Below, in pieces: positions 14,574 through 22,804 of a stretch of 64,000 nt of DNA. The stretch lies in contig NZ_LR746496.1 in assembly GCF_902729405.1 (NCBI RefSeq), positions 744,001-808,000 on the forward strand. Reading direction: 5' to 3'. The position numbers and the translations under genes are program-made. The notes beneath the pieces are model-generated. The model ran no database searches. It was not told the DNA's origin and worked only from the letters and a program-made list of their open reading frames with translations. Within the stretch, counting starts at the first letter, position 1. Each line of letters begins with the position of its first letter. This stretch comes from Acididesulfobacillus acetoxydans. Its GTDB lineage: Bacteria > Bacillota > Desulfitobacteriia > Desulfitobacteriales > Desulfitobacteriaceae.

Positions 14574-15755
14574 ATGATTCGCAATCTCATACGCGTTATC
14601 ATCACCCTACTGTTTGGGGCTTTGGGTTTCTATCTTGACTACATGTTTTTACGCCTTAATGTGCTGAAGTCTTTAGGCTGGCAGTCGCCCTCGACTGCTC
14701 TTTGGACTTACGTCGCCATGATCCTGATCTTCGCTGTGGTGGGCTTCTTGCTGGCCCCCGGCAGCATTCGCGGGTTCCTGAGCCTGGTCAAATGGATGGA
14801 TTCCCGGCTTCAGAAGATCCCGACTCACGATTTAATGGGCGGAGTAATGGGGGTCATCATTGGACTTATTATTTCCAGCTTGTTCAGTACCTCGTTCATT
14901 AGTATTCATTTTTTCGGGCCGCTGCTGTCCATCATTTTGAGCCTCGTGCTGGCGTACCTGGGCTGGACGCTCGGCGCCCGCCGCAAAGAAGAAGTTCTCA
15001 GCTTTCTCAATGTGTTTCCCAAGTTCAGGGACAAGGATAAACACGGGGAAAAACACAAGGAGAATGCCAACAGCAAAATGTCCGGGTCGGTCGCGGACAC
15101 CGTTCCTAACTACAAAATATTGGACACGAGCGTTATTATCGATGGCCGGATAGCCGACATTGTTCAGACCGGCTTTGTGGAAGGAACGCTCCTCGTTCCC
15201 AGCTTTGTGCTTGAGGAACTTCGGCATATTGCCGATTCTTCGGACTTGCTCAAGCGCAACCGGGGCCGCAGGGGTCTGGATATCCTGAATCAGATCTCCA
15301 AAGAGACGGGCATCAAAGTACAAATCCACGAGCAGGATTTTGAGGATATTGCCGAGGTGGACAGTAAGCTGGTTCGCTTGGGACAGGTCCTCGGGTCGCC
15401 GGTGTTGACCAACGACTATAATTTGAATAAAGTGGCGGAATTGCAGGGTGTCAAAGTACTCAATATCAATGAATTGGCCAATGCCGTCAAACCGGTCGTC
15501 CTGCCGGGTGAAGAGATGCTGGTTCAGGTCATGAAAGAAGGCAAGGAGCCCGGCCAGGGTGTCGCTTATCTCGACGACGGGACCATGATTGTGGTGGACA
15601 TGGGGCGGCGTTTCATGGGACAGCACATTCCGGTCCTGGTGACGAGCGTTCTGCAAACGGCGGCCGGGCGGATGATTTTCGCCAAACCCAAGGGTTTTGG
15701 CGACAAGAAGGGAATGGGAATACCGCCTGCGGACGAGGTGAACGCGATTGGATAG
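14574..15755 (+). CDS. YacL-type membrane PIN/TRAM domain protein
   Basis: 393 residues from ATG 14574 (GGAGGTGA, 5-nt spacing). Four N-terminal membrane segments (to about residue 145) are followed by a short charged linker, a PIN domain (KILDTSVIIDGRIAD, with further acidic residues in FVLEELRHIAD and VLTNDYNLNK) and a C-terminal TRAM domain (KEGKEPGQGVAYLDDGTMIVV). PIN domains are metal-dependent RNases, and TRAM binds RNA. The in vivo target of YacL is not established. Its stop codon overlaps the start of ispDF by 8 nt, so translation is probably coupled. Confidence 0.9.
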   Translation: MIRNLIRVIITLLFGALGFYLDYMFLRLNVLKSLGWQSPSTALWTYVAMILIFAVVGFLLAPGSIRGFLSLVKWMDSRLQKIPTHDLMGGVMGVIIGLIISSLFSTSFISIHFFGPLLSIILSLVLAYLGWTLGARRKEEVLSFLNVFPKFRDKDKHGEKHKENANSKMSGSVADTVPNYKILDTSVIIDGRIADIVQTGFVEGTLLVPSFVLEELRHIADSSDLLKRNRGRRGLDILNQISKETGIKVQIHEQDFEDIAEVDSKLVRLGQVLGSPVLTNDYNLNKVAELQGVKVLNINELANAVKPVVLPGEEMLVQVMKEGKEPGQGVAYLDDGTMIVVDMGRRFMGQHIPVLVTSVLQTAAGRMIFAKPKGFGDKKGMGIPPADEVNAIG

Positions 15756-19203: not shown

Positions 19204-20475
19204 ATGTTTCGCGGCTTGCTTAAGCCCTATAAAGGGCTGCCGAAAGAAGTTTACATTATCTTTATCGCCAGGATTGTCAACGCTTTGGGCTGTTTCGTCA
19301 TGCCCCTGTTGACCTTGATCCTGACAGAAAAGGTTGGGTTGTCGAAAGAAGCGGCGGGACTGTACATAAGTGCGGCAGGGTTTCTGTATATGCCCGCATC
19401 GATGTTGGGGGGGAAGCTGGCAGACAGTTTCGGCCGCAAGAATCTGATCGTGATTTGCAGTTTCTTGGGGGCGGCCCTTTATATTGTCTGCGGTATGCTG
19501 GGGCCCTCAATGGTCATGGTGTCTGTTCTGATGTTGGCGGGGGCGTTCATGGCTATGGCCGATCCGGCCAATGTCTCGCTCCTGGCAGATCTGACAACCC
19601 CGGAAAACCGCAACGGAGCCTACTCTCTCATTTATATGGGATGGAATATCGGTTTTGCGGTCGGACCTGTTCTGGGGGGGATGCTTTTCCAAAATCACCT
19701 GTCCTTGGTCTTTATCGGCGACGCGGCGACAGCCTTGCTGGCTTTGAGCCTGGTGGTGTTCTTTGTCAAGGATACCCTGCACCGCACGCGGGAGGAGATC
19801 GGCGATGAGGGCCGGCGCTGGGAACGCCGGGAGGAGGGATCGATTTTCAGCGTGCTCTTCAAGCGGCCGATTCTCCTCTACTTTGCCTTCATCATTTTTG
19901 GCTATAATTTCACTTATGCCCAATGGGCTTTTCTCCTGCCCATGCAGGCCGTCCGGGATTTCGGAGCCGCCGGGGCCAGATATTTCGGGTTGGTGGCGGC
20001 TTTTAACGGCTTAATCGTGATGATTTTCACCCCCGTACTAACCAGGATGACGGTTCGGCTCAAAAATATACGCCGCATGGTTTTGAGCGGGATTTTTTAC
20101 GCTGTCGGCTTTGGTCTCTTGGGAGTCGTGGAATCCTTGCCCTTGATATTCGTCTGTGCTTTTATCTTTACCATCGGTGAAATTGTGCTTTCCATCAGTG
20201 CGATTCCTTTCTTAGTCAACCATACCCCTGCTTCGCACCGAGGACGGATGAATGCGCTGATTCCGACCATTATGGGGTTGGGCTATACCCTGGGGCCTTT
20301 GGGGATGGGACAGATGCTGAGATATGTCACGATGGCAACGGGCTGGCTTCTGGCCGCCGGCTTAACTTTGGTCTGCGTTTTGCTTATGTACGGGTTGGAA
20401 AAGTATGATGACCGTCACTCGGCGGAAGATTTTGTCCTCACGGCCGAGAAGCCGGCGGACCAAACGGCGCTTTAA
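19204..20475 (+). CDS. Major facilitator superfamily transporter
   Basis: 423 residues from ATG 19204, preceded by GGAGGGG. About twelve membrane helices. The MFS signature after helix 2 reads GGKLADSFGRKNLIV, and the central cytoplasmic loop (about 190-215) is charged. It resembles the multidrug/solute exporter families. The substrate is unknown and no neighbour points to one. Its 3' end overlaps the minus-strand yvlD-like gene by 4 nt. Confidence 0.87.
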   Translation: MFRGLLKPYKGLPKEVYIIFIARIVNALGCFVMPLLTLILTEKVGLSKEAAGLYISAAGFLYMPASMLGGKLADSFGRKNLIVICSFLGAALYIVCGMLGPSMVMVSVLMLAGAFMAMADPANVSLLADLTTPENRNGAYSLIYMGWNIGFAVGPVLGGMLFQNHLSLVFIGDAATALLALSLVVFFVKDTLHRTREEIGDEGRRWERREEGSIFSVLFKRPILLYFAFIIFGYNFTYAQWAFLLPMQAVRDFGAAGARYFGLVAAFNGLIVMIFTPVLTRMTVRLKNIRRMVLSGIFYAVGFGLLGVVESLPLIFVCAFIFTIGEIVLSISAIPFLVNHTPASHRGRMNALIPTIMGLGYTLGPLGMGQMLRYVTMATGWLLAAGLTLVCVLLMYGLEKYDDRHSAEDFVLTAEKPADQTAL

Positions 20476-20813
20476 CGGAGAAGCCTCAAGGTTTTGGCCA
20501 GCCAATTCACCAAGGAAATGAGAAGAGCGGCTAAAAAGGCGACGCCAAAGCCCGGAATAACCAGACCCGGCAGAAAGACAGCTGTGAGCATCAGCATCCA
20601 GGTATTGACCACTAAAGTAAAGAGTCCCACGGTGAGCAAGTTCAAAGGGAACGTTAATAGGATGAGCAGGGGGCGCAGGAAGAAGTTGACCAGAGTCAGA
20701 ACGAAACCGGCCCAGAGGTAAGTCCAGGGAGTGGCCGCATGTATGGGCAGAACCTGAGCGGCCAGATAGAAAGCCGTGGTATTGACGAGGAAAGTCCAGA
20801 GTTGGCGGCGCAT
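20472..20813 (-). CDS. YvlD-like four-helix membrane protein (phage holin family IV type)
   Basis: 113 residues with four hydrophobic helices and the motif WAGFVLTLVNFFLRPLL, typical of the YvlD/Mycobacterium 4-TM family. Start ATG 20813 with GGAGGGATTCG upstream. In Bacillus, yvlD lies with yvlA-B-C in an operon linked to cell-envelope stress, and the same kind of neighbour (a YvlB-like protein) is found here two genes upstream. The precise function is unknown. Last gene of the minus-strand operon starting near 22490. Confidence 0.85.
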   Translation of the reverse strand: MRRQLWTFLVNTTAFYLAAQVLPIHAATPWTYLWAGFVLTLVNFFLRPLLILLTFPLNLLTVGLFTLVVNTWMLMLTAVFLPGLVIPGFGVAFLAALLISLVNWLAKTLRLLR

Positions 20814-20870
20814 CGAATCCCTCCGTTACTGACGTTATCTCAATTCCTCCGAGGCGGCGGTTCCGCGAGC

Positions 20871-21164
20871 CTACTTGAGGGCGAGGTAAACTCTGACCCC
20901 CGACGCCTCCACGTCGACAAGCCTCAAGCCCTTGTGGCGGCGCAAGTCTTGCAGTATCTCGGTACTGACCCCGTGAAGGTTCTTGGGGAGTGGGATGCCG
21001 CGGTACGGATAAGCCCACTTCCGCCACACCCTTTCCCCGAGCCAGACAAAGCTGCCGAGGGCCCCCAGGAAATCTTCCAGAACGAATAAAGGCACGGGCA
21101 GAGAGATTCGCGGAAACCCGGGTGTTTTGAGGCCGATGATCAGGAAAGTGGCCTTATTCCACAC
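20871..21164 (-). CDS. Small hypothetical protein translationally coupled to the YvlB-like gene
   Basis: 97 residues from GTG 21164, overlapping the upstream gene by 11 nt. The N-terminal 40 residues contain a moderately hydrophobic segment (LVPLFVLEDFLGALGSF-like), followed by a basic region and a C-terminal VDVEASGVRVYLALK. I recognise no family. Coupling and position suggest a role in the same envelope process as YvlB/YvlD. Confidence 0.55.
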   Translation of the reverse strand: MWNKATFLIIGLKTPGFPRISLPVPLFVLEDFLGALGSFVWLGERVWRKWAYPYRGIPLPKNLHGVSTEILQDLRRHKGLRLVDVEASGVRVYLALK

Positions 21165-21642
21165 AGACTTCGACCTTGACCTTTCCTTGGTATTCATCTT
21201 CAGTCTCGATATCCACCAGTTTTCCGTCTGTTCCCTGCTCCAGCAGCCGGACCAGCTCCTCGATATTGATGTCGTAGGGGTCAAGCCCTTTTTTCTCCAT
21301 TTCTGCCCGGGCTTCGGCAGGAATGAAAGCCAAGGCATAGCGGGCGAGCTTGGAAGCGGACTTGATCAGACTGAACGGAATGTTGACATTGACTTTGTTG
21401 CTCTTGTCCCCGGTGACGCGAACCCTCAAAAAGTGTTCGGCGGCTGAGGAAGTGGCGCCGCCATGAGTCTCTTGGTCTTGGGCCTGATCCTTGGGGGCCG
21501 AGCCGGCTCTGCGTTGACCGAGATACGGTTCGCCATCTTGCCCCTCATCAAAGGCTTTAAGCAGCTCCATTCCTTCGGCGGCGCTAATTTTTCCTTCTTG
21601 AATCATCTCCAGAACCTTCAATTTCTCTTCGTTCATGATCAT
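21154..21642 (-). CDS. YvlB/SHOCT-like N-terminal domain protein
   Basis: 162 residues from ATG 21642 (AAAGGA site). The first 40 residues (EEKLKVLEMIQEGKISAAEGMELLKAF) match the short helical domain at the N-terminus of YvlB-type proteins (DUF4097 family N-terminus). A charged linker is followed by a short beta-rich region (LRVRVTGDKSNKVNVNIPF), and the large DUF4097 beta-helix is absent. It forms an operon with a DUF2089 regulator upstream and a YvlD-like protein downstream. Confidence 0.8.
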   Translation of the reverse strand: MIMNEEKLKVLEMIQEGKISAAEGMELLKAFDEGQDGEPYLGQRRAGSAPKDQAQDQETHGGATSSAAEHFLRVRVTGDKSNKVNVNIPFSLIKSASKLARYALAFIPAEARAEMEKKGLDPYDINIEELVRLLEQGTDGKLVDIETEDEYQGKVKVEVCVE

Positions 21643-21863
21643 CGTCAATCCTTTCGTTTTTCTCGCCGGGGCGCTTTAATGACCCGCCTCGTCTCAACTT
21701 TTGACGCCTTGCGCCCGGGCGGACTCTCCTTGGCCCCCAAAAGGTTCACTAAACACTTCCGACGTTCGCCCGTGGTCACGGTGTCGCCGAGATTTAACCG
21801 CAAGCCTCGCTGAGATAAGCGCCGGGTCAGCCGAGGTTTAGCCGCCGGTGATGCCCTTAGGAT

Positions 21864-22250
21864 CTAGCGTCTGCCTCTTAATTGCCTGGCCGCCTCTTGG
21901 GCGGAGAGCTCCCCGCGCTCCAAAGCGATCAGGATCTCTTGCCTGCGCTCACTCTCTTCCGGAGTGTGGATCCCGGCCTTGTCGGGACCGTAACCCAAAG
22001 CCTCGATCACGCTGTCCAGGCGGCTGCGCACCGTGGGATAGGAGATTCCCAAGACTTTTTCTACTTCTTTAATGTTGCCCCGGCACCTAATGAAAGCCTC
22101 CACGAATTCCAATTGTTCGGTGGGCAGCCGGCAAAACTTGCACGACGAAAACTCTCCTTCAACCTTGGTCGGACAGTGGGTGCAGGCGAGCTTAGTGATG
22201 ATCAGTTCGTGGCTGCACACCGGACAACGATGGGGTATGCGATAGGACAT
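21864..22250 (-). CDS. DUF2089 family DNA-binding regulator
   Basis: 128 residues from ATG 22250 (GAGGTGA, 5-nt spacing). An N-terminal zinc ribbon (CPVCSHEL, CTHCP, CKFCR) precedes a sigma-4-like helix-turn-helix (IRCRGNIKEVEKVLGISYPTVRSRLDSVIEALG), and the C-terminus has the short EILIALERGELSAQEAARQL helix shared with YvlB-like proteins. This is the DUF2089 architecture. It probably regulates its own operon. The long leader upstream carries eight tandem 17-bp repeats. The 221 bp between this gene and the next (21643-21863) hold nothing I recognise. Confidence 0.85.
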   Translation of the reverse strand: MSYRIPHRCPVCSHELIITKLACTHCPTKVEGEFSSCKFCRLPTEQLEFVEAFIRCRGNIKEVEKVLGISYPTVRSRLDSVIEALGYGPDKAGIHTPEESERRQEILIALERGELSAQEAARQLRGRR

Positions 22251-22287
22251 GGAATCACCTCTCAAGAACTTTCCAAAGGCATTTGTT

Positions 22288-22423
22288 TGACACAGGCAGT
22301 CGTCTGACACAGGCAGTCGTCTGACAAAGGTATTCGTCTGACAAAGGTATTCGTCTGACAAAGGTATTCGTCTGACACAGGCAGTCGTCTGACAAAAGTA
22401 TTCGTCTGACAAAGGTATTTGCC
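22288..22423 (-). repeat. Eight tandem 17-bp repeats in the leader of the DUF2089 operon
   Basis: Head-to-tail 17-bp units in two variants: A = TGACACAGGCAGTCGTC and B = TGACAAAGGTATTCGTC (plus-strand sense). Order A A B B B A B B, the last two B units with small changes. The array lies downstream of the promoter at 22493-22521 and 37 bp upstream of the start codon, so it is transcribed as part of the 5' leader. Identical B units show recent copying. Confidence 0.92.
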
Positions 22424-22492
22424 CGGTATTCGATCGATACCAGCCCTTATATACCAACAACCCTTGTCGGAGCGGCCGCCTTTTCTGCTCTA

Positions 22493-22521
22493 AGAATAAC
22501 AGAGCCACTTAATTATGTCAA
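22493..22521 (-). promoter_or_regulatory. Sigma-A promoter of the DUF2089-yvlB-yvlD operon
   Basis: Minus strand TTGACA (22516-22521), 17-nt spacer, TATTCT (22493-22498). A 30-bp palindrome lies 10 bp upstream of the -35, a good position for an activator or repressor site. Confidence 0.7.
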
Positions 22522-22531
22522 TAGTTTAGTT

Positions 22532-22561
22532 AACAATATTAATAGATATATTAATATTGTT
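22532..22561. promoter_or_regulatory. Palindromic operator candidate, 12-bp arms
   Basis: AACAATATTAAT and ATTAATATTGTT separated by AGATAT, perfect pairing, very AT-rich in a GC-richer context. It sits just upstream of the -35 of the minus-strand operon. The symmetry and 18-bp centre-to-centre half-site distance fit a dimeric helix-turn-helix protein. The owner is unknown. Confidence 0.65.
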
Positions 22562-22804
22562 CATCAGTTGCTCATCACCTTCAGAGTCTTAGGCCATGGC
22601 CTCAATCATCAGCCAGGTGGTAAATTGGGCGAAACGATCCTCAGGAGCGAGCGGCAAGACCAGGGAATTCGAATATCTCTGCCGATGCCAGTGTACAGAA
22701 GCGGCCGCGGGAGGAATTTACGCAAAAGATCGCGAATAGTAGAAAATGCGACCCCCAAAGCGGTCGCAAATTGAATGCCCTGACACGGCTGAGGGAGGAA
22801 GAGC

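Follow-up and report, generated by a model that had tools for sequence, protein, structure and literature searches.

A conserved ladder of TTAA-N5-TTAA dyads at the promoter of a DUF2089 operon, a candidate autoregulatory operator, and a probable lineage-specific minisatellite in the operon leader

Introduction

Which sequence in front of a DUF2089 regulator gene is likely to control it, when the region holds both a striking tandem array of 17-bp units and a palindrome at the promoter? The question is posed by a locus in the window (by which we mean the whole 64,000-nucleotide stretch of Acididesulfobacillus acetoxydans DNA that was analysed). A sequence-only reading had drawn attention to the array, offering it as a multi-site operator for the regulator, a structured RNA or a phase-variable control region, and had placed a palindromic operator upstream of it. 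The palindrome proves to be the stronger of the two features. We consider it quite likely that it forms part of an operator through which DUF2089 would repress its own operon and, taken together with this, that the array is a neutral minisatellite.

Results

The DUF2089 regulator and its presumed operon

The regulator gene (21864–22250, minus strand) encodes 128 amino acids, comprising a zinc ribbon, an HTH and a predicted C-terminal helix pair, and a conserved AGAGGTGAT-type Shine-Dalgarno sequence lies just upstream of it. Its earlier assignment to DUF2089 is confirmed by Pfam, where the HTH matches PF09862 at 89.5 bits (cut-off 33.4, E 1.1e-25) and the zinc ribbon matches PF22747 at 54.1 bits (cut-off 27.6, E 1.7e-14). 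The zinc-ribbon residues C9, C12, C23 and C26 are at least 90% conserved in 28 sequences. Helices are predicted in the C-terminal region at residues 97–111 and 117–125 and are conserved in the alignment; at E 0.001 the protein gave no PF22746 match. An AlphaFold model of the protein (m3c1818e7b136, 28 sequences) has a mean pLDDT of 84.5. When this model was compared with the PDB using Foldseek there was no match at E ≤0.001 (best 0.067), and the top ranks were occupied by LuxR-type and sigma-region-4 (−35-binding) domains with a probability near 1 and E values of at least 0.067. According to a 2009 paper, DUF2089 finds response-regulator effector domains (PMC2686095).

Among 299 genomes sampled across the phylum, 101 were found to have DUF2089 regulators. 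In the window, the presumed second gene of the operon encodes a SHOCT-like-domain protein (21154–21648, minus strand, start position provisional; PF22746, E 7.5e-10) and the presumed third gene a Phage_holin_4_2 membrane protein (20472–20813, minus strand; PF04020, E 3.2e-26), which we take to be YvlD-like, presumably resembling YvlD of the yvlABCD operon. Of the 20 closest named loci (L039–L058), 18 share the order DUF2089, SHOCT-like, holin-like. About 340 bases without a clear gene (20814–21153) separate the SHOCT-like and holin-like genes, and relatives retain a gap of comparable length.

A 17-bp tandem array in the leader

Nine 17-bp units (22274–22426, minus strand) occupy the leader between the promoter and the DUF2089 gene. 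TRF describes positions 22274–22419 as 8.6 copies of period 17 with 88% matches and a score of 194, and a unit-by-unit script resolves seven good copies with one degenerate unit at each end. Read from left to right, the order is degenerate, A, A, B, B, B, A, B′, degenerate, in which variant A is CACAGGCAGTCGTCTGA, variant B is CAAAGGTATTCGTCTGA and B′ is B with one change. The array that the sequence-only reading had seen between the promoter and the gene is therefore real, and its placement inside a presumed transcribed leader is supported. The order given there, A A B B B A B B, stands for the units at 22291–22426 provided that the degenerate final unit is counted as B, but the array starts at 22274 and not at 22288, the first degenerate unit having been omitted. 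The units abut at a 17-bp pitch and so lack the unique spacers of a CRISPR; head-to-tail, near-identical and within 10–60 bp, they are those of a minisatellite. An open frame of 214 amino acids runs through the array into DUF2089, but a coding extension was rejected because relatives that have no array conserve both the Shine-Dalgarno sequence and the start.

The array is restricted to a single lineage. Among 73 genomes searched within the order, a pair of units from the array (≤1 mismatch) was found in that of the window and in no other. Peptococcaceae bacterium CEB3, a strain of the same genus and the nearest relative according to the species description of Acididesulfobacillus acetoxydans (PMC8982180), has the promoter and the DUF2089 gene and lacks the array, as does every other relative whose DUF2089 upstream sequence was read (66 DUF2089 loci). 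The distance from TTGACA to the start codon is 271 nt in the window, 75 nt in CEB3 and 51–86 nt in the other 36 of the anchored loci defined below, and the excess of ~196 nt over CEB3 corresponds to the array and about 40 further bases. A mobile or shared element was rejected, since the array matched nothing in phage and plasmid collections and, within its own genome (4,520,225 bases, one contig), only the locus itself and two 16-base stretches (E 0.94). At genome position 720209 a sequence nearly matching the unit stands alone, without tandem copies, and looks coding.

Tandem arrays of this general kind abound in the window's genome. In a survey of 20 stretches of 20 kb (400 kb) per genome, for which the comparison was one Desulfosporosinus genome, 60 distinct arrays were found against 15 in Desulfosporosinus; the corresponding numbers are 31 and 4 for arrays of period 8–60 with at least three copies, and 7 and 0 for those of period 10–30 with at least five. 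Three other arrayed regions were compared with CEB3: both flanks of the first were found with the array stretch unaligned, a single flank of the second aligned, and the third matched a dispersed repeat family. Parts of this last region (14904–15669, locus L156 of the window's own genome) match 54 places in CEB3, and the repeat is like a REP-type or MITE-type element.

Neither of the molecular functions first suggested for the array withstood comparison. As a multi-site DUF2089 operator it was rejected, the best match to the operator dyad (described below) inside the array being 4/8, and the array is missing from CEB3 and other relatives in which the upstream dyads are conserved. As a structured, riboswitch-like RNA it fared no better. 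The leader RNA gives a z of −3.91 against plain shuffles, which mostly reflects repetition: permuting the columns within the tandem array, a control that we judge fairer, removes most of this signal, and the fold energy was matched by 14/200 such permuted arrays for the leader and by 69/200 for the array alone. Variation between A and B disrupts hairpin pairs without compensation (units read by eye), and all three Rfam matches fall below the gathering score and outside the array. Because it occurs in 1/73 genomes, is absent from CEB3, sits in a genome rich in such arrays, holds no copy of the presumed DUF2089 site and has a fold unremarkable for a tandem array, we read the array as probably an ordinary minisatellite confined to one lineage, where it would have arisen by slippage in the leader. 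Nothing points to a regulatory role for it and it may well be neutral, with a modest effect on translation still conceivable.

The array resembles bacterial minisatellites or VNTRs in its short-period head-to-tail organisation, mixed near-identical variants, degenerate ends and strain-specific presence, but those elements vary in copy number whereas this array is known from one carrier genome. The same difference weighs on the idea that it is a contingency (VNTR) element, in which changes in copy number would adjust translation of the DUF2089 operon through the length or structure of the leader. The mixed order of near-identical units does suggest recent slippage or unequal exchange, presence of the array differs between two strains of the same genus, and in one predicted ensemble the Shine-Dalgarno GAGG is unpaired 2–4% with the array as opposed to 46–65% without it. 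Removing the array in silico, however, leaves other bases of the start region more paired, no copy-number variation has been seen in the one array-bearing genome at hand, many similar arrays exist elsewhere in that genome and, because the array is outside the gene, it is not a reading-frame switch; we regard a contingency function as improbable. Far less credible still is the idea that the units form a set of operator sites for another regulator, such as a GntR protein of the FadR type. The sequence of five B-type units, TTGTCAGACGA, is close to what we take to be the FadR-subfamily motif TNGTCNGACNA, and there are five exact TTGTCNGACRA matches inside the array, but the A-type units lose one half-site and the five fully symmetric sites (TTGTCNGACAA) that the genome has outside the array display no promoter pattern, so that FadR-type sites were rejected. 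Of these five, two belong to duplicate copies of a single transposon-type gene region, a third falls within a recombinase-like gene, and the last two are coding-looking by eye. The two copies (genome positions 1361937 and 1543991) are near-identical (99.3%) and carry an ExeA/TnsC-like ATPase beside transposase-like proteins, gene names assigned by reading; the region is probably a recently copied transposon.

Three phased dyads at the promoter

The consensus promoter reported upstream of the array is present as TTGACA-17-TATTCT on the minus strand (22521–22493), a predicted promoter matching 10/12 of the consensus, in which the −10 hexamer TATTCT (22493–22498) follows the −35 hexamer (22521–22516) after a 17-bp spacer; its register is the same in relatives. 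The 30-bp palindrome also exists as described, with 13-nt arms (22532–22544 and 22549–22561) that are 100% complementary around a 4-nt loop, but it is not a single site. Instead it spans most of the first two of three 13-bp dyads of the form TTAA-N5-TTAA, which are arranged as a ladder with a 21-bp pitch over 22509–22563 of the minus strand. Dyad 1 (TGAACAATATTAA, 22551–22563) matches 7/8 consensus positions, dyad 2 (TTAATATTGTTAA, 22530–22542) matches 8/8, and dyad 3 (TTGACATAATTAA, 22509–22521) is fused to the −35 hexamer, containing TTGACA within it. Scored over three dyads of 8 positions each (maximum 24), the ladder reaches 22/24, a value attained by 0/200 dinucleotide shuffles. A dyad on the −10 is not preserved in the window. 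Elsewhere in this genome the ladder does not recur at ≤3 mismatches; the DUF2089 promoter is its only place.

Conservation and location of the ladder

The ladder recurs in front of DUF2089 genes at the same pitch, and AT-rich dyads in register were apparent when the sequences upstream of 66 DUF2089 loci were read. With the threshold set at 20/24, it was reached at pitch 21 by 39/53 distinct DUF2089 loci, and by 0–5 loci at each other pitch from 14 to 35; this first set was drawn from 66 loci by dropping 13 that duplicated another locus over the final 120 bases upstream of the gene, with truncated or masked loci kept. A second set was taken from 299 genomes over the phylum, in which 103 DUF2089 matches became 96 once 7 already in the first set had been omitted. 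Here 30/96 reach 20/24 at pitch 21 (other pitches 0–4, shuffle expectation 0.0) and 62/96 beat all 100 of their own shuffles, while 26/96 have neither a triple nor a pair signal, among them loci in GC-rich genomes and cases of DUF2089 within a longer open frame; as ladder loci share ancestry, none of these counts represents independent events.

To describe the geometry, 38 loci were anchored on TTGA in the ladder register, one of the 39 high scorers having been left out for want of TTGA. The mean dyad match, out of 8, at −63, −42, −21, 0, +21 and +42 from TTGACA is 3.1, 7.4, 7.8, 6.8, 4.6 and 2.3, respectively, and the −35 dyad matches at least 6/8 in 37/38, although anchoring on TTGA itself favours a −35-like third dyad. 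The +21 dyad, on the −10, is weaker, reaching 6/8 or better in 17/38, and at several loci of the phylum dyads lie on the −35 and −10 themselves (e.g. L142, L128, L122). Because 21 bp is two helical turns, all of the dyads fall on the same face of the DNA.

A search of 61 genomes for the ladder pattern (≤3 mismatches, rows linked to DUF2089 by eye) placed it near DUF2089 in 28 of the 34 genomes that contain the family. At ≤1 mismatch it is present in 23/61 genomes, invariably upstream of a DUF2089 operon and nowhere else, and the other places, about 11 across the 61 genomes, all carry 2–3 mismatches and are mostly coding-looking by eye. Two genomes (G004, G012) have a short DUF2089 and no ladder, and in another two (G043, G058) the ladder precedes a 113–114 aa gene that itself precedes DUF2089. 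At the level of sequence, then, the ladder is well established in its pitch, its −35 register, its conservation and its near-exclusive location at DUF2089 operons.

Discussion

The ladder is a conserved site at the promoter of the regulator's own operon, and on the strength of this co-location it is probably a conserved autoregulatory operator of DUF2089, which lends support to the palindromic operator first proposed for the window. This candidate operator is the main finding and is new as far as our literature search reaches: the publications on DUF2089 that it covered, most subscription papers lying outside it, contain no DUF2089 operator, binding site or target. We suggest that the most likely protein to bind the ladder is the DUF2089 protein encoded just downstream, which would do so as cooperative dimers, via its sigma-region-4/LuxR-like HTH, along one face of the DNA. 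Once bound it would cover the −35 and repress its own operon (DUF2089, the SHOCT-like protein and the holin-like membrane protein), and an envelope signal would release this repression. Binding, repression and signal are all inferred from sequence. A near-consensus promoter whose −35 lies under a dyad is the reason for favouring repression over activation, and an envelope signal is suggested by the SHOCT-like parts and the membrane partner.

The ladder might instead be bound by some other factor, or DUF2089 might be an activator that recruits RNA polymerase via the ladder. Because two genomes have a 113–114 aa gene between ladder and DUF2089, the ladder is tied to the promoter of the operon and not strictly to the DUF2089 gene, and the upstream dyads are at positions where activators often bind, both of which speak for such a reading. 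The arrangement at the promoter nevertheless fits blocking better, since in almost every anchored locus the −35, a consensus TTGACA spaced 17 bp from the −10, falls within a dyad and 17/38 of these loci have a dyad (≥6/8) on the −10 as well, while the proximity of ladder and DUF2089 in 28/34 genomes argues against an unrelated factor. We therefore consider another factor or an activating role rather unlikely, and favour autorepression by DUF2089.

The ladder resembles helically phased multi-dyad repressor operators, in which dyads recur at intervals of whole turns and one of them occupies the −35. It is set apart by its TTAA-N5-TTAA dyads, its 21-bp pitch and an uncharacterised regulator family and, unlike that class, its dyads may double as −35 and −10. 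Among systems that involve DUF2089 itself, the nearest are the Toastrack/PSP-like contexts for which a link from membrane stress to transcription has been proposed, and in which a zinc ribbon and HTH regulator likewise adjoins a SHOCT-like partner; the accessible part of that account describes no operator, promoter architecture or autoregulation for DUF2089 (PMC11237479). In the partner encoded in the window no Toastrack domain (DUF4097/2154/2807) was found at E 0.001, the sole match at that level being SHOCT-like_DUF2089-C. The yvlABCD operon of Bacillus subtilis is comparable as an envelope-stress operon with small membrane proteins, but DUF2089 is not mentioned in the accessible part of its description (PMC9239133). 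With a precise candidate operator that has a fixed geometry and is all but confined to the regulator's own operon, the DUF2089 family becomes testable, and the more eye-catching 17-bp array can be discounted, as it looks like ordinary repeat turnover.

A broader proposal, which we make tentatively and with more doubt than conviction, is that DUF2089 proteins form a widespread group of autorepressors that settle, by means of a sigma-region-4-like HTH, on a 21-bp ladder whose repeating dyad would be both promoter and operator, across Bacillota and at the single MAG loci labelled Spirochaetes and Cloacimonadota (L063, L074) where matching ladders also occur. In such a ladder TTGACA would lie within the −35 dyad, and the rung that follows 21 bp later would carry TATAAT-like bases two positions in, leaving a spacer of exactly 17 bp. 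If this is true, operator and promoter would be one repeated sequence, with repression built into promoter recognition.

In one genome of the Desulfosporosinus group, a second ladder-like site (G027:C1:5123601–5123655) lies away from DUF2089, with 2 mismatches on both strands, and is a possible second target.
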